From positions 1 through 58,937 of the forward strand of contig NZ_BBPM01000007.1 in the NCBI RefSeq assembly GCF_000787775.1: a DNA stretch of 58,937 nt, written 5' to 3'. Within the stretch, counting starts at the first letter, position 1. Every line of letters begins with the position of its first letter. Shown here in pieces: positions 3,387-37,787 of this stretch. This stretch comes from Streptacidiphilus carbonis. Its GTDB lineage: Bacteria; Actinomycetota; Actinomycetes; Streptomycetales; Streptomycetaceae. Under the pieces are notes generated by a model, which saw only the letters and a program-made list of their open reading frames with translations, did no database searches and was not told the origin of the DNA. Made by a program: the position numbers and the translations under genes.

Positions 3387-3956
3387 TCAGCGCAGCGGCG
3401 CGGTCAGCCGGGGGCCTGCCGGGTCGTGCTCGATGGCGCAGGTGGCGGTGCGCCGTCCGGCCCGGTAGGAGGCCAGGTCCGGCCAGATGACGCCGCCGGA
3501 GACCAGCGGTTTGAGGGTCTGCCGGGCGCGGACCGGGGCGGTGACCGGGTAGCAGAGGCTGTTGGCCTTCTCGACCAGGGCGACCCCGCTGGTCAACCCG
3601 CCCGGGAGCTGCAGCAGCCCGATCACCTGGCCGTCGTGCGGCTGGTGGCAGTCCTGCTCGGTGTAGCGGGAGGCTGCGCCGGTGTGCCCGGGGGCGTCGA
3701 AGCAGTCGCCGGGGCGCAGCAGCAGGTACGACAGCGTCTGCGGGAGGGGGGAGGGAGACGGCGCGGGCGGGATGCTGGTCGCCGTGGTGGGGCTGGGCGT
3801 GGGGCTCGGGGAGGCGGAACCGGCGGCGGCCGCGGGCTTGCCGTGGCCGCTGCCGCTGCTGAGGACCATCGCGAGGACGGCGGCCAGCACCAGCGCCAGC
3901 AGCCCGGCGGTGATCGCGAGCGTCCGCCGCCGGGGCCGGGGCTGATTCGGGCTCAT
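3387..3956 (-). CDS. Septum-formation-family membrane-anchored protein (copy 1)
   Basis: A 189-aa protein with a short basic N-terminus, one membrane helix (residues 12-32), a Ser/Pro/Thr-rich linker of about 45 residues and an extracytoplasmic domain. The domain carries GDCFD, DCHQPHDGQV, SLCYPV and TATCAIEHD, and the Cys spacing plus the CxxPHDGQV core match the Septum_form/DUF4190-linked domain common in actinomycetes. The family name derives from weak links to cell division; no activity is known. The next minus-strand gene (3985-4851) is a longer paralogue 28 bp away with the same Cys pattern and the same closing sequence (LTAPLR and LTAALR), so the pair arose by tandem duplication. Confidence 0.7.
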   Translation of the reverse strand: MSPNQPRPRRRTLAITAGLLALVLAAVLAMVLSSGSGHGKPAAAAGSASPSPTPSPTTATSIPPAPSPSPLPQTLSYLLLRPGDCFDAPGHTGAASRYTEQDCHQPHDGQVIGLLQLPGGLTSGVALVEKANSLCYPVTAPVRARQTLKPLVSGGVIWPDLASYRAGRRTATCAIEHDPAGPRLTAPLR

Positions 3957-3984
3957 GTTCCCCAGGATGCCCGGTGATGGGGTC

Positions 3985-4851
3985 TCACCGCAGGGCCGCG
4001 GTCAGTTTGGGGTCGCCGACGTCGATGGTGAGGGTGCAGTAGGCCTTGTGGTCGCCGCCCTGGTACCCGTCGAGGAGCGGGTAGAAGACGCTGCCCGACA
4101 GATGCAGGCTGCTCGACTGCCGCTGGTAGACGGCGGAGTTGAGGGGGTGGCAGAGGCTGTCCGCCTTGTTGCTGATCTCGTCGCTCGTGGTCAGCCCGCC
4201 GGGCAGCGCCACCACCGCGGTCACCTCGCCGTCGTGCGGGCTGCTGCAGCCGCGCTTGGTGATGTCGTTGATGGTGAGGGTGACGGCCGGGTCGCTGTAG
4301 CACTCACCCTGCGTCATCGTGACCGCGTTGTAGGTGAGGCTGCTGGACGAGGCGCTGGGCGTCACGCTCGCCAGATCGCTGGGCAGATCGCTGGGCAGAT
4401 CGCTGGGCAGGTCGGAGGGGAGGGCGGAGGGCAGTGTGTCCGAAGGCAGGGCGAAGGGCGAACTCGACGACGCGACCGGGCTCTTGGAGTGCGAGCCGCC
4501 GGAAGCGACGGCTATCACCGTGCCGACGATGCCCAGGGCGACTATCGAGCCGACGACGATGGCGACGACCTTCCCCCGGCCGCCGCCCCCGCCGGGCGGC
4601 GTCGGCCCGTACGGGGACTGCGGCTGGCCCTGGTAGGGCTGCGGCGGACCGGGGTACTGGGGAGGCTGTCCGCCGGGGTACTGCGGCTGGTCCCCGTACT
4701 GGGGCTGGTCCCCGTACTGGGGCTGGTTGGGGAAGTTCTGGTACTGCGGCGGCCCCGGATAGGGCTGCGGCGGTCCATAGCCCTGCGCAGGCTGCTGTGG
4801 CGGCTGGTCCTGGCCACCGTAGGGCGGTTGCTGTGGAGGCGGGTAACTCAT
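3985..4851 (-). CDS. Septum-formation-family protein with Pro/Gln-rich N-terminus (copy 2)
   Basis: I start this at the ATG giving MSYPPPQQPPYGG (about 288 aa). The frame is open to 4902, but an N-terminus opening directly in the Pro/Tyr/Gln region is typical of DUF4190-type proteins. Order: a Pro/Gln/Tyr-rich cytoplasmic region with repeated GDQPQY units; one membrane helix (VVAIVVGSIVALGIVGTVIAVA); a Ser-rich linker with LPSD repeats; and an extracytoplasmic domain with GECYSD, GCSSPHDGEV, SLCHPL and AYCTLTIDV. The last domain is the same as in the neighbouring shorter protein. The role is unknown; Pro/Gln-rich tails of this type often mediate protein contacts. Confidence 0.7.
   Translation of the reverse strand: MSYPPPQQPPYGGQDQPPQQPAQGYGPPQPYPGPPQYQNFPNQPQYGDQPQYGDQPQYPGGQPPQYPGPPQPYQGQPQSPYGPTPPGGGGGRGKVVAIVVGSIVALGIVGTVIAVASGGSHSKSPVASSSSPFALPSDTLPSALPSDLPSDLPSDLPSDLASVTPSASSSSLTYNAVTMTQGECYSDPAVTLTINDITKRGCSSPHDGEVTAVVALPGGLTTSDEISNKADSLCHPLNSAVYQRQSSSLHLSGSVFYPLLDGYQGGDHKAYCTLTIDVGDPKLTAALR
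4373..4408. repeat. 12-bp tandem repeat encoding LPSD units
   Basis: Three exact copies of agatcgctgggc run from 4373 to 4408, followed by diverged copies to about 4430. They encode the LPSD linker of the copy-2 protein, so the linker length is probably variable between strains. Confidence 0.85.
4687..4722. repeat. 18-bp tandem repeat encoding GDQPQY units
   Basis: The unit ctggtccccgtactgggg occurs twice in exact tandem and encodes GDQPQY repeats in the Pro/Gln-rich N-terminus of the copy-2 septum-formation-family protein. Confidence 0.85.
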
Positions 4852-31567: not shown

Positions 31568-33013
31568 ATGCGCCGAGCAAAAATCGTCTGTACTCTAGGG
31601 CCCGCCACCGATTCGTACGACCAGATCAAGTCCCTGGTCGACGCCGGTATGGACGTGGCCCGCTTCAACCTCAGCCACGGCTCCTACGCCGAGCACGAGG
31701 AACGCTACCGCCGGGTCCGCAAGGCGGCCGACGAGACCGGCCGCAGCGTCGGCATCCTGGTCGACCTGCAGGGACCCAAGATCAGGTTGGAGACGTTCGC
31801 CGAGGGTCCGGTCCTGCTGGAACGCGGCGACGAGTTCACCATCACCACCGAGGACCACCCCGGGGACCGCAACGGCTGCGGTACCACCTACAAGGGCCTG
31901 TGCGGCGACGTCTCCCCGGGCGAACGCATCCTCATCGACGACGGCCGGGTAGCCATGGACGTCGTCGCGGTGGACGGGCCCCGGGTCCGCTGCACCGTGG
32001 TCGAGGGCGGCATGGTCTCCGACCACAAGGGCCTCAACCTCCCCGGTGTGGCCGTCAGCGTTCCCGCGCTCAGCGACAAGGACGTCGCCGACCTGCGCTG
32101 GGGACTCCGTATCGGAGCCGACATCGTCGCGCTCTCCTTCGTCCGCAGCGCCGCCGACATCGCCGACGTGCACGCGATCATGCGTGAGGAGGGACGTTTC
32201 GTCCCGGTCATCGCCAAGGTCGAGAAGCCGCAGGCGGTCGACAACCTCGAAGGGATCGTCAACGCCTTCGACGGCGTGATGGTCGCCCGCGGCGACCTGG
32301 GCGTGGAGATGCCGCTGGAGCAGGTCCCGCTGGTCCAGAAGCGCGCCATCAAGCTGTGCCGCCGCAACGCCAAGCCGGTGATCGTGGCGACGCAGATGCT
32401 GGACTCCATGATCAATGCCTCCCGCCCCACCCGTGCCGAGGCCTCCGACGTCGCCAACGCCGTACTCGACGGCGCCGACGCGGTGATGCTCTCCGGTGAG
32501 ACCAGCGTGGGCAAGTACCCGACCGAGACCGTCCGCACCATGGCCCGCATCGTCTGCGCCGCCGAGGAGGACATCATCGAGGGCGGGCTGCCGCCGCTCA
32601 CCGAGAACAACAAGCCCCGCACCCAGGGCGGCGCGGTGGCCCGCGCGGCCGCCGAGATCGGCGACTTCCTGGGCGCCAGGTACCTGGTCGCCTTCACCCA
32701 GTCCGGCGACACGGCGCGCAGGCTCTCCCGCTACCGCTCGCCGATCCCGGTGCTGGCCTTCACCTACGAGCCGGCGGTGCGGAGCCGGCTCTCGCTCAGC
32801 TGGGGCGTGGAGACCTTCATGGGTCCCTTCGTGGAGACCACGGACGAGATGGTCGCCCAGGTCGACAACGCCCTGCTGGCCATCGGCCGCTGCGAGCCGG
32901 GCGACATCGTCGTCATCACGGCCGGCTCCCCGCCCGGCCTGGCCGGCTCCACCAACCTGGTCCGGGTCCACCACGTGGGCGAGGACGACAGCCCGCGGGA
33001 CGTGACCGTCTGA
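31568..33013 (+). CDS. pyk: Pyruvate kinase
   Basis: A 481-aa enzyme that converts phosphoenolpyruvate and ADP to pyruvate and ATP. The N-terminus MRRAKIVCTLGPATDSYDQI is canonical; VARFNLSHG binds K/ATP; VIAKVEKPQAVDN carries the catalytic Lys; and VMVARGDLGVEMP binds the divalent metal. The ATQMLDSMINASRPTRAEASDVANAVLDGADAVMLSGET segment is the family signature. The small C-terminal allosteric domain (TQGGAVARAAAEIGDFL to the end) is complete. The mRNA appears leaderless. A 20-bp perfect hairpin after the stop separates it from the convergent permease gene. Confidence 0.97.
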   Translation: MRRAKIVCTLGPATDSYDQIKSLVDAGMDVARFNLSHGSYAEHEERYRRVRKAADETGRSVGILVDLQGPKIRLETFAEGPVLLERGDEFTITTEDHPGDRNGCGTTYKGLCGDVSPGERILIDDGRVAMDVVAVDGPRVRCTVVEGGMVSDHKGLNLPGVAVSVPALSDKDVADLRWGLRIGADIVALSFVRSAADIADVHAIMREEGRFVPVIAKVEKPQAVDNLEGIVNAFDGVMVARGDLGVEMPLEQVPLVQKRAIKLCRRNAKPVIVATQMLDSMINASRPTRAEASDVANAVLDGADAVMLSGETSVGKYPTETVRTMARIVCAAEEDIIEGGLPPLTENNKPRTQGGAVARAAAEIGDFLGARYLVAFTQSGDTARRLSRYRSPIPVLAFTYEPAVRSRLSLSWGVETFMGPFVETTDEMVAQVDNALLAIGRCEPGDIVVITAGSPPGLAGSTNLVRVHHVGEDDSPRDVTV

Positions 33014-33108: not shown

Positions 33109-34752
33109 TCAGTGACCGCCCTCGTCGACGACGGCGACCTCGTCGATGTTCCGCTCGATGTCCTCGCGCTTGAGGCCGACGGCAACGGCCCAGTAGTAGA
33201 CGGCGAGCGCGAACACGGCGATCAGACCCATGTCCCACCACAGGTGGATGTGGCCCTCGGAGCCGACGCCGAAGCCGCCCTGCCATGAGATGACCCCGAT
33301 GCCGATCAGGTAGACCGGCAGCCACTGTGCGGCCTTCCAGTCCAGCTGCGGGGCGTTCGGCAGGTTCTTGGAGCGGGCGTAGGCGGCGTACGAGCCGAGC
33401 AGGATGTAGCCGAGGATGATGGCCACGCCCAGGCGCCACAGCGTGGCCCAGCCGGCCCAGTAGATGATCAGGCTGGCGATCACGAACGACACCGGTGCGA
33501 TGACCTGCCCGGCGGGAAGCCGGTAGGGGCGCTCACGGTCCGGCAGCCGGTTGCGCAGCACTCCGTAGGCGAGCGGCGCGCCCGCGTACATCAGCACGCT
33601 GGCGGAGGTGATGAAGCTGACCAGCTGCTGCCAGCTGGGGAACGGCAGGAAGCAGATCACGCCGGTGACGAAGGAGATGATCAGACCGAACCACGGCACG
33701 CCGCGCTTGTCGGTCGCCTCGAACAGCTGCGGCGCATAGCCGTTGCGGCTCAGACCGTAGGAGATCCGGGAGGTCGAGGTGGTGTAGATCAGGCCGGTGC
33801 CGGCCGGGGAGATGATCGCGTCCAGGTAGAGGATCCAGGCCAGCCACCCCAGGCCGATGACGGTGGCGAGACCGGCGAAGGGACCGCTGATGCCGGTGTA
33901 GGCGAGGTTCGCCCAGCCGTGGACGAAGGAGGAGCCGGGCAGCGCGCCGATGTAGACCACCTGCAGCAGCATGTAGATCAGCGCACCGATCGCCACCGAG
34001 CCGAGCACGGCGCGCGGGATGTCCTTCTTCGGGTTGCGGCTCTCTCCGGAGAGCTGGATCGCCTGCTCGAAGCCCAGCAGGGCGAAGATGATGCCGCTGG
34101 TGCTGATCGCCGCGAGGATGCCCTTCGCGCCGAACGGGGCGAAGCCCTGCGAGGTGAAGTTGCCGGTGTGGAAGTGCGTGATCGCCAGCACGAAGATGGC
34201 GAGCAGCGGGATCGCGATCTTCCACCAGGTCGCGGCGCTGTTGGTGTGCGCGAGCAGTCGCACTCCGAGGAAGTTCACCGCGACGAACACCGCCATCAGT
34301 ACGACGGCGATGACGAACCCGGACGCGGTCAGCGTCCCGTTGGGGTGCTGGAACCCGGACGCCCAGGACCAGTGCTGGGCGTATCCGATCATGGCCTCGA
34401 CCTCGATCGGCGCGACGGTGGCCGCCTGCAGCCAGGAGAACCAGCCGAACGACATCCCGGCCAGTCCGCCGAAGGTGTAGTGCGGGTACCTCGCGGTACC
34501 GCCGGCCACCGGGAACATCCCGCCCAGTTCCGCGTGTACCAGCGCCAGCAGGATGATCGCGACGGCGCCGATCCCCCAGGAGATGATCGCCGCCGGCCCG
34601 GCGACCACGACGGCCTCCTTGGCCCCGAAGAGCCACCCCGAACCGATGATCGACCCGACGGACGCCCACATCAGACCGATGAGGCCGATCTCCCGCCGTA
34701 GCGAGCGGGACCCGGTGTCGGGGGATTTGGGCAACAGATCAGTGGGTGCCAT
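33109..34752 (-). CDS. APC-family amino-acid permease
   Basis: A 547-aa protein with 12 or more hydrophobic segments. Helix 1 carries the APC substrate-binding break GSIIGSGWLFG; helix 6 has the GIIFALLGFEQAIQLSGESRNPKKDIPRAV signature. The C-terminal tail is charged (LKREDIERNIDEVAVVDEGG). It is an importer or exchanger of amino acids or polyamines at the cytoplasmic membrane; the specific substrate cannot be read from the sequence. It is a monocistronic gene with a long upstream region and a hairpin at its 3' end. Confidence 0.9.
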   Translation of the reverse strand: MAPTDLLPKSPDTGSRSLRREIGLIGLMWASVGSIIGSGWLFGAKEAVVVAGPAAIISWGIGAVAIILLALVHAELGGMFPVAGGTARYPHYTFGGLAGMSFGWFSWLQAATVAPIEVEAMIGYAQHWSWASGFQHPNGTLTASGFVIAVVLMAVFVAVNFLGVRLLAHTNSAATWWKIAIPLLAIFVLAITHFHTGNFTSQGFAPFGAKGILAAISTSGIIFALLGFEQAIQLSGESRNPKKDIPRAVLGSVAIGALIYMLLQVVYIGALPGSSFVHGWANLAYTGISGPFAGLATVIGLGWLAWILYLDAIISPAGTGLIYTTSTSRISYGLSRNGYAPQLFEATDKRGVPWFGLIISFVTGVICFLPFPSWQQLVSFITSASVLMYAGAPLAYGVLRNRLPDRERPYRLPAGQVIAPVSFVIASLIIYWAGWATLWRLGVAIILGYILLGSYAAYARSKNLPNAPQLDWKAAQWLPVYLIGIGVISWQGGFGVGSEGHIHLWWDMGLIAVFALAVYYWAVAVGLKREDIERNIDEVAVVDEGGH

Positions 34753-35143: not shown

Positions 35144-35929
35144 TCAGTACTTGGCCCCGATGTGCTCGTCCATCAATGCGACAGAAGCCCTCCGGGCGAC
35201 GGAGACGTGGTAGGGATCGGACCCGCGCCGGGAAGTCCGCCAGCCGACGCCGACGAAGTCGAGGGTGTCGCTGAAGATCCGCCGCACGTCGTCGGACTTG
35301 TTGGTGAAGATGTAGCGCGGGTACTCGTACCGCTTGGTGCTGCCGTCGGCCAGCGCCGCCGTGGTCCAGTTGGTGACACGGCACCCGTCGGAGTGGATCA
35401 GGCCACGGATGAGCGGCCAGGGATGCGCATCCACGATCTGCTGCTGCCAGCCGTCCAGGGCGATGACACGGGTGTGCTTCATCCCGGGACCGTGCTGCGG
35501 GAACAGGCACGGGAGGTGCTTGGAGTAGAGCTTCACACTGGTGCAGCCCCTGGCTCGGACGCGGCAGACCGAGTTGTGGGGGAACACCGCTCGCATCGCG
35601 GCCTCGGCTGCGTCCATGAGGCCGGGCCAGGTATCCGTGCAGGCGATCGAGAGGTTGTGCACGCGGTGCTTCTTAGGGAGGACGATGTGGCCGTCCCCGA
35701 GGTAAAGCCCGAGCAGGTATGCGTAGGCGGCGCCGTCGAGCTCGTCCCCGTCGCAGCGATGGCAGGTGGACCGGCGCGCCCCGGGCAGAGCGCCGCGTTC
35801 CGCACGATCCTGGTGGATCCACCAGGCGACTGTTCCCTTGGGAACGCCGAGCGCGCGAGCCACTGCGTTCGTCTTCCCGCTGCGACACGCTGTCAGGGCC
35901 CGATCACGGGTCTCCGGGGGCCAGTTCAT
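35144..35929 (-). CDS. HTH-LAGLIDADG protein, paralogue A
   Basis: A 261-aa protein when started at MNWPPETRDRAL (ATG 35929), which parallels the start of its neighbour; ATG 35980 adds 17 residues. Residues 8-37 form a homeodomain-like helix-turn-helix (RALTACRSGKTNAVARALGVPKGTVAWW). A short CHRCDG motif follows, then two LAGLIDADG helices: YLLGLYLGDG (71-80) and LIRGLIHSDG (173-182), both retaining the acidic residue (D79, D181) that binds the catalytic metal in homing endonucleases. Other conserved blocks are CLFPQHGPGMKHTR, RVTNWTT, YIFTNKSDDVRRIF and VSVARRASVALMDEHIGAKY. It is a free-standing protein, not in an intron or intein. The pairing of HTH and LAGLIDADG recalls WhiA, but with the order reversed. 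The function is unknown. Confidence 0.75.
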   Translation of the reverse strand: MNWPPETRDRALTACRSGKTNAVARALGVPKGTVAWWIHQDRAERGALPGARRSTCHRCDGDELDGAAYAYLLGLYLGDGHIVLPKKHRVHNLSIACTDTWPGLMDAAEAAMRAVFPHNSVCRVRARGCTSVKLYSKHLPCLFPQHGPGMKHTRVIALDGWQQQIVDAHPWPLIRGLIHSDGCRVTNWTTAALADGSTKRYEYPRYIFTNKSDDVRRIFSDTLDFVGVGWRTSRRGSDPYHVSVARRASVALMDEHIGAKY

Positions 35930-36080
35930 GGATCCAGCGTGCGGCGGCTCCGGACCGGACTCCTCGCGAACCTCGATCAATCATTCGTTCGCGTGAACTG
36001 CGTCAATCCCGCTCCATCAACATCACTCCTACAGGGCTTGATCGCCTCGCCGGAGCCCGCGCTGTGAGGCCCGGAGGCGC

Positions 36081-36842
36081 TCAGTACTTGGCTCCGATGT
36101 GCTCGTCCATCAACGCGACGGAGGCTCTCCGGGCGACGGAGACGTTCAATGCGTTCGCCTGCTTCCACTCGACGCCCAGGGAGTCAAGGGTGGCTGTGTA
36201 GAGCCGACGGATGTCTGCGGATTTGTTGCTGAAGAAGTAGCGCGGGTAGTCGTAGCGCCGCACGCCGGCGGCAAGGCGCCGGGTGGTCCAGTTGGTCACA
36301 CGGGCGCCGTCCGAGTGAATGAGGCCCCGCAGGAGCGGCCAGGGGTGGGTGTCGACGAGTTCTTGCTGCCAGGTCGTCAGTTCGATGCTGCGGGTGTGCT
36401 TGGGGCCCGGCCCGTGCTGCGGGAACAGGCACGGCCAGTGCTTGCTGTAGCTGCCGACGCTGGTGCACCCCTTGCACTGCGTCCGCCCCACCTTACTGGT
36501 CGGCATCACGCCGCTGAGCGCCTCAGCGCAGGAGTCGATCAAGCCCGGCCAGGCGTCGGCACAAGCGATGCGCATCGAGTGGACGCCCTTGCCGACGTGG
36601 CTGATGCAGCCGTCGCCGAGATAGAGGCCGAGGAGGTACGAGTAGGTGCTTGGTGGGACTTCGGGTGTGAGGCGGCCATCCGAAACCGGGCACTCGGCGC
36701 TGACTCCGGGCAACGGCTCGACGCGGACCGTCCAGGCGCGGATCGCGGCCCGGGAGATGCCCGTGCGATGGCTCACCTGGTTGAGGCTCATGCCCGCATC
36801 AACGAGAGAGAGGGCCTGATGGCGGGTGGCTCTGTCGTACAT
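36081..36842 (-). CDS. HTH-LAGLIDADG protein, paralogue B
   Basis: A 253-aa tandem paralogue of the preceding entry with the same layout. HTH at residues 5-38 (ATRHQALSLVDAGMSLNQVS, then a recognition helix near SRAAIRAWTV); LAGLIDADG helices YLLGLYLGDG (69-78, D77) and LLRGLIHSDG (170-179, D178). The blocks CLFPQHGPGPKHTR, RVTNWTT, YFFSNKSADIRRLY and VSVARRASVALMDEHIGAKY are shared almost residue for residue, while the HTH and linker differ strongly, so the two copies probably recognise different DNA. The CHRC motif of paralogue A is absent. It lies 151 bp upstream of paralogue A on the same strand and 109 bp from a tRNA gene. Confidence 0.75.
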   Translation of the reverse strand: MYDRATRHQALSLVDAGMSLNQVSHRTGISRAAIRAWTVRVEPLPGVSAECPVSDGRLTPEVPPSTYSYLLGLYLGDGCISHVGKGVHSMRIACADAWPGLIDSCAEALSGVMPTSKVGRTQCKGCTSVGSYSKHWPCLFPQHGPGPKHTRSIELTTWQQELVDTHPWPLLRGLIHSDGARVTNWTTRRLAAGVRRYDYPRYFFSNKSADIRRLYTATLDSLGVEWKQANALNVSVARRASVALMDEHIGAKY

Positions 36843-36930
36843 GGGGCCGACATTCGCGCCCGTGGCTCGATGGCGCGCTCAGAATGCGAGACAACCACTT
36901 GATGTGATGAAGATCGCCAGCGCGCCGTGA

Positions 36931-36947
36931 ACCTTCGAATCGAAGGT
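36931..36947 (-). terminator. Short hairpin behind the tRNA gene
   Basis: ACCTTCG-aat-CGAAGGT is a perfect 7-bp inverted repeat starting 5 nt past the tRNA 3' end on the minus strand and probably ends its transcript. Confidence 0.55.
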
Positions 36948-36951
36948 GAAG

Positions 36952-37026
36952 TGCCCCGAGTCGGATTCGAACCGACACTGTATGGGTTTTGAATCCATTG
37001 CCTGCTGCCAATTGGGCTACCGGGGC
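36952..37026 (-). tRNA. tRNA with CAA (Leu) anticodon on a class-I body
   Basis: The 75-nt minus-strand gene folds as a cloverleaf. Acceptor GCCCCGG/TCGGGGC (one G-U pair); T8 and A14; D-loop with GG; anticodon loop TTCAAAA (anticodon CAA, reading UUG); variable region ACAGT (5 nt); T-arm GTCGG-TTCGAAT-CCGAC; discriminator A; CCA not encoded. All usual invariant bases are present. Two oddities: leucine tRNAs normally have a long class-II variable arm, absent here; and the anticodon stem ATGGA/CCCAT has an A-C mismatch next to the loop. The D-arm resembles tRNA-Gln types. I call the gene confidently but not its charging identity. Confidence 0.8.
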
Positions 37027-37121
37027 CTACGGAATGAAGGTTCTCCCTCAACCGCCGCGCCTCAAACATACCGTGTCTAGGTAGGCTCTTGCACGTACCC
37101 CCCGCGTCAACGAGGAGCACC

Positions 37122-37787
37122 GTGACCGCCGCCGACGAGCAGCACGAGCAGCATGTCCCGCCGACGACGACCCGTGTGGTCATCGCCGAGGACGAGGCAT
37201 TGATCCGCCTCGACCTCAAGGAGATGCTCGAGGAGGAGGGCTACACCGTCGTCGGTGAGGCCGGGGACGGTGCCGAGGCGGTGAAGCTGGCGACCGAGCT
37301 CCGCCCGGACCTGGTCATCCTGGACGTGAAGATGCCGATCCTGGACGGCCTGTCCGCCGCTGAGCAGATCCATGAGGCGCACATCGCGCCCACCCTGATG
37401 CTCACCGCCTTCTCGCAGCGCGAGCTGGTCGACCGGGCGCGGGACGCCGGCGCGATGGCCTACATCGTCAAGCCGTTCAACAAGAGCGACCTCGTGCCGG
37501 CCATCGAGATGGCCGTCTCCCGCTACAGCGAGATGCGCGCGCTGGAGGAGGAGATCGCCGACCTCAGTCTGCGCCTGGACACCCGCAAGCTGGTGGACCG
37601 CGCCAAGAGCGTGCTGCAGACCAAGTTCGGGCTGACCGAGCCCGCCGCCTTCCGCTGGATCCAGAAGACCTCCATGGACCGCCGGATGACCATGAAGGCC
37701 GTCGCCGAGGCGGTCATCGAGGAGGGTGCCGCCCAGGACGCCAAGAAGAAGGCCCCGGCGGACCCGGAAACGGCCCCGGAGGCCTGA
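37122..37787 (+). CDS. ANTAR-domain response regulator (PdtaR-like)
   Basis: A 221-aa protein from GTG 37122, chosen for the GAGGAG at 37112-37117. Receiver domain: acidic pocket in VIAEDEALIR, phospho-acceptor Asp in LVILDVKMP, Thr in MLTAFSQ and Lys in IVKPFNKSDL. A linker coiled coil (MRALEEEIADLSLRLDTRKL) leads to a C-terminal ANTAR RNA-binding domain (VDRAKSVLQTKFGLTEPAAFRWIQKTSMDRRMTMKAVAEAVI). Such regulators act as phosphorylation-controlled antiterminators, binding paired hairpins in nascent mRNA. The actinomycete orthologue beside pyk has no linked kinase gene, as here. A strong terminator follows. Confidence 0.93.
   Translation: MTAADEQHEQHVPPTTTRVVIAEDEALIRLDLKEMLEEEGYTVVGEAGDGAEAVKLATELRPDLVILDVKMPILDGLSAAEQIHEAHIAPTLMLTAFSQRELVDRARDAGAMAYIVKPFNKSDLVPAIEMAVSRYSEMRALEEEIADLSLRLDTRKLVDRAKSVLQTKFGLTEPAAFRWIQKTSMDRRMTMKAVAEAVIEEGAAQDAKKKAPADPETAPEA

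Follow-up and report, generated by a model that had tools for sequence, protein, structure and literature searches.

Two adjacent genes in a stretch of the Streptacidiphilus carbonis genome raise the question of why a bacterial chromosome should carry, next to a tRNA-Leu gene, two free-standing proteins that join a helix-turn-helix (HTH) to a LAGLIDADG fold. The stretch, called the window below, comprises 58,937 nucleotides of contig NZ_BBPM01000007.1. The genes, A and B, are two minus-strand open reading frames (ORFs) between a tRNA-Leu(CAA) gene and an APC-type permease gene. The proteins are probably free-standing, tRNA-Leu-associated LAGLIDADG homing endonucleases with an N-terminal HTH, which carry tRNA alleles along with them. 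The argument turns on four features.

35144..35980, minus strand: gene A, HTH and two-motif LAGLIDADG protein with an HG-type N-terminus (ORF, alignment, AlphaFold2 model).
36081..36842, minus strand: gene B, HTH and two-motif LAGLIDADG protein with a YD-type N-terminus (ORF, alignment, AlphaFold2, Foldseek).
36951..37026, minus strand: tRNA-Leu(CAA), class I and phage-like, 76 nt with a 5-nt variable loop and no long variable arm.
36007..37076, minus strand: putative incoming cassette of tRNA promoter region, class I tRNA and gene B (homology edges).

The alignment-based AlphaFold2 models of A (mean pLDDT, the predicted local distance difference test, 89.1) and B (94.7) both place an HTH at the N-terminus, followed by a two-motif LAGLIDADG fold, which in B takes the form of two alpha-beta-beta-alpha-beta-beta-alpha halves. 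Each N-terminal head is modelled as three helices. A Foldseek comparison with PDB, run on the B model only, returned 891 matches (E <= 10), the best 50 of which are all LAGLIDADG endonucleases, engineered variants or maturases, with I-Tsp061I at the top (E 4.7e-8, TMq 0.54). Structure prediction, which the initial annotation had proposed as a check, thus finds the LAGLIDADG endonuclease fold plus an HTH in the models of both proteins.

The Asp-Gly pair is kept in both LAGLIDADG motifs (D77 and D178 in B, D96 and D198 in A, in alignment numbering), as had been noticed from the sequence alone. Both aspartates occur in all 87 aligned sequences (85 relatives, A and B), one of which, L087, is badly decayed and doubtfully aligned at the first motif. 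They are likewise present in 50/50 sequences of a class-wide set and in 31/31 of a set that includes four viral proteins. The ratio of nonsynonymous to synonymous substitution (dN/dS) is 0.09-0.40 in ten pairwise comparisons, indicating purifying selection. The kept aspartates and these ratios therefore argue that the proteins are maintained, and nothing in the alignments suggests that catalytic positions are lost.

A and B are 54% identical over 259 aligned columns. Identity is 27% over residues 1-60 of B, 54% over 61-140 and 69% over 141-253, and the last 20 residues are common to both. The initial annotation had described adjacent paralogues at 35144..36842 with diverged N-terminal heads, an identical 20-residue C-terminus and a CHRC motif in A only, and each of these observations holds. 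The codons of the shared C-terminus differ at 5 of 60 bases, so the identity lies at the protein level. It does not stem from DNA copied very recently, and gene conversion of the C-termini in the recent past need not be invoked. Since the consensus of the protein family is CPRC, B has probably lost the second cysteine, rather than A having gained the motif. Conservation suggests ATG 35929, rather than TTG 35980, as the probable start of A. The genes had also been said to lie in neither an intron nor an intein; none was seen around A or B, both ORFs being complete and the tRNA uninterrupted (the window was not scanned with Rfam intron models).

The pair does not look like a simple tandem duplication, because B is nearer to Streptomyces-type genes (best identity 65%) than to A (54-55%), and A is nearer to genes of its genus-mates (best identity 70%). 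The sharp cassette edges described below speak against such a duplication as well.

The relatives of both genes stand, in the great majority, beside tRNA-Leu genes. From the genome contig collection, the best 80 of 395 stretches and five from the window's genus were taken as loci L003-L087. In 85/85 of these loci, whose gene DNA is in every case distinct, tRNA-Leu(CAA) lies 75-244 bp upstream on the same strand, and the gene order is liv genes, pdtaR, tRNA, gene and usually pyk. The following neighbours occupy the flanks in the window.

31568..33013, plus strand: presumably pyruvate kinase (pyk), conserved far flank (ORF, shared flank).
33109-34752: APC-type permease, between the pyruvate kinase gene and gene A.
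37089..37787, plus strand: an ORF which we take to be a pdtaR-type ANTAR response regulator, flank (ORF, shared flank).

The pdtaR synteny is common to most other families of the class that were read. A class-wide survey gave matches in 97/393 genomes, 60 of them outside Streptomycetaceae, and 45 loci were fetched from 45 of these 60. An adjacent tRNA-Leu was found in 43/45 (31 CAA on the same strand, 4 CAA on the opposite strand and 8 UAG on the opposite strand), at a distance of 33-270 bp in 41 of the 43; for two stacked loci this distance applies to the nearer gene. The two loci without an adjacent tRNA-Leu are both weak matches (L177, and L176, in which the gene was not re-found). Two families differ from the rest. 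The f4 genes adjoin tRNA-Leu(UAG), within different flanks. In three of the four f17 loci the gene is found on the pdtaR side of the tRNA, opposite to the usual one; the remaining locus shows no pdtaR.

In other classes of the phylum, 24 genomes matched among 246 searched, and 16 places in 15 genomes were read. Fourteen of the 16 lie at most 81 bp from a tRNA-Leu (CAA 10, CAG 2, UAG 1, UAA 1); one stands by tRNA-Trp and the weakest (E 8e-8) by no tRNA. The tRNA precedes or follows the gene on either strand, following it in 6/16, and the rule that the gene start always faces the tRNA, true of the 186 class loci tabulated, is broken there. Genome G766 carries one copy at each of two different tRNA-Leu genes. 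The shared pdtaR-tRNA-gene-pyk synteny accounts for many adjacencies, not for those of f4, f17 or the other classes, and because sides, orientations and anticodons (CAA, UAG, CAG, UAA) differ, synteny alone is insufficient. On these comparisons, placement follows tRNA-Leu and not one inherited site. The mapping suggested in the initial annotation therefore yields homologues that track tRNA-Leu genes in bacteria and phages, with acidic residues that have not decayed.

Presence of the gene is patchy. A gene or a piece of one was found in 293/394 Streptomycetaceae genomes. The window's genus has it in 6/14 genomes, two copies being present in the window genome only; no match was obtained in the other 8/14, one of which is only 76% complete. 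Broken copies at several stages of decay were seen beside the tRNA in L249, L257, L262, L183, L186 and L187. Patchy presence and decay are thus directly visible signs of mobility, and transfer is what we infer from the allele mosaics and the viral copies.

The class I identity of the window's tRNA-Leu(CAA) had been overlooked in the initial annotation. In bacteria, tRNA-Leu is described as class II (PMC7609411), and one tRNA-Leu(CAA) gene is given for each of six Streptomyces genomes (PMC4932002). The window's tRNA is apparently the only CAA tRNA of its genome: the class I CAA pattern matches once, and none of the ten tRNA matches of class II length that were read is CAA, about a dozen class I-length tRNAs falling outside this individual reading. 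Genomes G145, G195 and G337 have two class I CAA pattern matches each instead of one. A73 and the cloverleaf are present in the class I tRNA (by eye). Since leucine identity in E. coli depends on A73 and tertiary contacts and does not need the long arm (PMC9976931), charging of this tRNA with leucine is plausible. The window tRNA matches 203 phage records, 138 of them over at least 80% of its length, and at least 120 viral stretches contain the class I tRNA-Leu(CAA) pattern. A palindrome follows the tRNA directly.

36931..36947, no strand assigned: perfect 17-bp palindrome ACCTTCGAATCGAAGGT, immediately beyond the 3' end of the tRNA.

By eye, similar hairpins follow most of the listed class I tRNAs of Streptomycetaceae, and the palindrome was not seen in the loci of other families. 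A universal operator between tRNA and gene was considered and rejected, the palindrome standing mostly at Streptomycetaceae class I loci and no common motif being present. The heptamer CTGTCGG occurs in 13/43 other intergenic stretches.

How the class I tRNA came to stand here is indicated by the edges of homology. In seven genus-mates with a class II tRNA (L083, L085, L086, L235, L236, L237, L240), pdtaR-side homology to the window ends at 37077, 50 bp short of the tRNA; in L083, another 43-bp block matches at the tRNA 3' end. The class II genus-mates L238, L239 and L241 were outside this comparison. In the class I mates L084 and L087, homology extends past the tRNA. L086 has a class II tRNA and an A-like gene; here homology begins again at 36006, shortly before A, and continues into the permease, where the compared stretch ends. 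About 1,070 bp of the window (36007-37076) thus correspond to 244 bp with a class II tRNA in L086. From these edges, a class II tRNA upstream of a resident A appears to have given way to a cassette of class I tRNA and B. A second stacked locus, L385, has a YD-type gene at 1001-1753 and then an HG-type gene at 1796-2563, behind a class IIb tRNA. In the empty genus-mates L237-L241, a terminator-like hairpin directly follows the tRNA (by eye). A scan of 174 bacterial and viral loci (12 duplicates included) found no convincing class II tRNA remnant at bacterial class I loci, viral L408 being excepted; a match in L029 looks like chance.

The same locus carries several tRNA alleles across the Streptomycetaceae. 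Removal of 12 duplicates (same genome from two collections) from 191 loci read left 179 distinct loci, a sample chosen in large part through the gene and hence no census. Class I was found in 134, class IIa in 32 and class IIb in 13. These loci hold 111 distinct tRNA-Leu(CAA) sequences with a mean pairwise identity of 76%; identity to the window tRNA ranges over 0.58-0.99 and reaches at least 92% in 46/179. The control, tRNA-Leu(CAG), shows 92-100% identity to that of the window genome in 60/61 Streptomycetaceae genomes, and 86% in G033. The 32 class IIa loci have an HG-type gene in 19, no gene in 12, a fragment in 1 and a YD-type gene in 0. At the class I loci, YD-type genes number 108, HG-type 5, no gene 13 and fragments 8. 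The class IIb loci have HG-type genes in 10, both types in 1, YD-type in 1 and no gene in 1. On the sequences compared, it is thus the type of the gene, not simply its presence, that goes with tRNA class. The N-terminal start of the profile match and the tRNA class are also associated (Fisher p 3e-21, uncorrected for kinship, in 149 of the 293 genomes, with best matches favoured).

Among the 394 surveyed genomes, 265 match the class I tRNA-Leu(CAA) pattern. The pattern found 153/155 class I and 0/23 class II tRNAs in loci that had been read. It is a proxy: G020 matches though its locus tRNA is class II, and the extra matches in G019 and G037 are not tRNA-like.

Relatives occur in viruses as well. 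Ten viral contigs carry them, all beside a tRNA (seven tRNA-Leu, three tRNA-Met). Some of these are not independent, L411-L413 being 94-99% alike and L415-L417 identical over the matched part. The latter three, beside tRNA-Met, are more distant, partial relatives (query residues 55-217 only, query A3). A class I tRNA-Leu(CAA) abuts the gene end in L408 and L410 (the latter by eye). In L410 (4760-5072), the gene runs past the usual end of the family, adding a Cys-rich part and a C-terminus that resembles an HTH, and stops at the class I tRNA (by eye). A class II tRNA-Leu 5' half that ends after the D arm stands just before the gene in L408 and L414, and in L409 it stands before the tRNA that precedes the gene (by eye).

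Comparable units are built with an unrelated nuclease. L414 has, at 372-999, a class II tRNA-Leu half, an HNH ORF (454-936) and a class I tRNA-Leu(TAA) that overlaps the end of this ORF, and L315 has a unit of half tRNA, HNH gene and class I tRNA-Leu(CAA), noted some 1 kb upstream of its class I tRNA. Also in L414, a class I tRNA-Leu(CAA) is predicted at 4127-4200 inside ORF 3938-4738, in frame, between the HTH and LAGLIDADG parts. Among the ORFs abutting 120 viral class I tRNAs, at least 6/46 upstream and at least 10/50 downstream match an HNH profile (E 0.01). A tRNA half lies at most 1.5 kb upstream in 3/120 viral class I loci, the L408 contig among them; four had been flagged, L333 and the second flag of L281 proving to be intact tRNAs on reading. 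Halves without an endonuclease gene also occur (L414, L302). An acceptor-stem match between half and class I tRNA in L414 was not retained, as it is absent in L408/L281, L302 and L315 and is possibly due to chance. Taken together, the arrangement suggests that class I tRNA-Leu genes could stand in, uncut, for class II genes that endonucleases have broken.

The homing-endonuclease reading could work as follows. The endonuclease would cut at or near the tRNA-Leu gene of an allele without the endonuclease gene, the break would be repaired from the donor allele, and the endonuclease gene would spread together with the adjoining tRNA-Leu allele by co-conversion. In the window, the phage-type class I tRNA-Leu(CAA), its promoter region and B would have taken the place of a class II tRNA-Leu(CAA) formerly located ahead of A, so that A came to be stacked behind B. 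Separate cut and insertion sites with co-conversion are known for free-standing phage endonucleases (PMC2988022). We infer DNA cleavage, its exact target, its role as the driver of the swap, and the charging of the class I tRNA with leucine. A further-reaching version, tentative and rather doubtful at present, is a natural cleave-and-rescue system. In it, the host class II tRNA-Leu gene would be destroyed by the endonuclease, and decoding would pass to a linked class I tRNA of phage origin that has no target; such units, some with HNH nucleases, would be shared by phages and actinomycetes and would have replaced a chromosomal tRNA repeatedly across a bacterial family. The features that bear on it are the cassette of class I tRNA and B, and the viral series of class II half, endonuclease gene and class I tRNA-Leu.

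Several observations weigh against homing with tRNA replacement. Coupling of gene and tRNA class is loose in the survey: class I genomes number 187 with the gene and 78 without, and class II genomes (those without a class I pattern match) 106 with and 23 without, which rules out a strict coupling of gene presence to a class I tRNA. On a pdtaR tree of 177 de-duplicated loci, a weak species proxy, tRNA class changes between I and II 30 times, compared with a mean of 40.2 (range 33-45) in 200 shuffles; because this is below the shuffled labels, tRNA class is, by this proxy, partly inherited by descent. Class II tRNAs with HG-type genes resemble those without (by eye), and because the two groups look alike, the immunity of hosts with a class II tRNA and an HG-type gene has no explanation. 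A gene of this HTH-LAGLIDADG family is present in 1/120 fetched viral class I tRNA loci. The Streptomycetaceae loci that were read have the gene at a single syntenic place, a pattern that would also agree with vertical descent and losses.

That last point belongs to a broader alternative, an old single insertion beside tRNA-Leu(CAA) followed by losses and by one tandem duplication in this strain. The pdtaR-tRNA-gene-pyk order, conserved in Streptomycetaceae and most other families read, speaks for it; the separate affinities of A and B given above, the cassette edges, the other tRNA-Leu contexts and the viral copies make it highly improbable. The gene might instead be a passenger: homologous recombination would swap variable tRNA-Leu(CAA) alleles, selected for example by tRNA-cutting defence systems or toxins, and the endonuclease gene would ride along. 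The 78/265 class I-pattern genomes without the gene and the many phage class I tRNA-Leu genes without this endonuclease gene agree with that. Exchange at one locus does not explain independent insertions by tRNA-Leu genes of several anticodons and on both sides, nor the stacked insertions of the window and L385, and the passenger role is accordingly judged unlikely.

The initial annotation had offered two origins, domesticated regulators or a selfish pair targeting the neighbouring tRNA locus. As a WhiA-like DNA-binding regulator, the protein would bind near tRNA-Leu, for instance at the palindrome, and control read-through or the divergent pdtaR promoter, its LAGLIDADG part being non-cutting. 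Its HTH, its occurrence in 293 of the 394 genomes, purifying selection, the palindrome after class I tRNAs and a weak match of A to a MerR-like regulator in PHROGs (its best there, 'MerR-like transcriptional regulator', E 2.4e-4) would suit such a role. The catalytic aspartates, however, are never lost in the 87, 50 and 31 sequences, eight of the 14 genus genomes (one incomplete, as above) have no match, decayed copies and viral relatives exist, and the palindrome was not seen by eye in the loci of other families. Regulation also fits poorly with stacked insertion, replacement of tRNA alleles, phage carriage and presence or absence within genera, so that domestication is quite unlikely. The selfish pair fares better: its genomic prediction is strongly supported by tRNA-Leu tracking and by gain, decay and loss, and targeting of the tRNA gene itself is presumed.

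The initial annotation had also considered the family possibly undescribed, which is plausible. All Pfam and NCBIfam matches of A and B fall below the curated cut-offs. LAGLIDADG_3 matches A at E 2e-4 (22.0 bits, cut-off 22.5) and B at E 0.065, and no WhiA profile is among the matches; this is the outcome of the profile search that had been proposed. Fifty family members scanned gave a LAGLIDADG_3 match in 30 and an HTH_23 match in 34 (E 0.001). The annotated phage and plasmid collections gave no protein match to B, and the annotated phage collection none to the viral L408 protein. No description of this HTH-LAGLIDADG family or of a class I tRNA-Leu(CAA) in Streptomyces was found in the available portions of the open-licence PMC literature.

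Among known systems, WhiA is a conserved regulator, not known to be tRNA-linked or patchy, with an N-terminal LAGLIDADG part, a C-terminal HTH and degenerate catalytic residues. It shares with A and B an HTH joined to a LAGLIDADG-like domain, but in A and B the HTH is N-terminal, as modelled, and the aspartates are kept; the opposite domain order had been pointed out earlier and agrees with the models. I-Tsp061I, I-AniI and I-DmoI have the same fold, with two motifs in one chain, but are intron-encoded, whereas A and B are free-standing with an added N-terminal HTH. Endonucleases of group I introns in tRNA genes, such as cyanobacterial tRNA-fMet, also have a tRNA gene as their home; there the home is an intron, and the window tRNA is uninterrupted, with no intron seen. 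Engineered cleave-and-rescue drives link a nuclease to an uncut rescue copy; they are synthetic and CRISPR-based, not a natural bacterial tRNA system. The free-standing GIY-YIG homing endonuclease SegB of phage T4 resembles A and B in adjoining tRNA genes and in its link to inheritance of the tRNA region (PMC2988022, PMC13096335). It belongs to another nuclease family, is confined to phage and is not tied to tRNA-Leu, and the excerpts of these papers describe no chromosomal tRNA replacement. Phage-derived mycobacterial tRNA clusters likewise include endonuclease genes and encode a tRNA-Leu(TAG) with a short variable loop (PMC6582537); those nucleases are of the HNH family, and the cluster is a large import, not a replacement of the host's own tRNA gene. 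A free-standing homing endonuclease near tRNAs is thus of a known kind. As far as the searches show, HTH-LAGLIDADG proteins on bacterial chromosomes together with tRNA replacement are new.

The class I tRNA-Leu(CAA) pattern, seen in 265 of 394 genomes of the family, represents a shape other than that of the bacterial tRNA-Leu described in PMC7609411. The loci provide a collection of LAGLIDADG proteins, each a single chain extended by an HTH, that are tied by location to conserved tRNA genes. They open to test whether a selfish nuclease could drive tRNA replacement, how bacterial LeuRS would handle a class I tRNA-Leu, and whether phage class I tRNA-Leu genes could serve as immune copies. If the homing-endonuclease reading is true, phage tRNAs, homing endonucleases and turnover of the chromosomal tRNA set would be linked.

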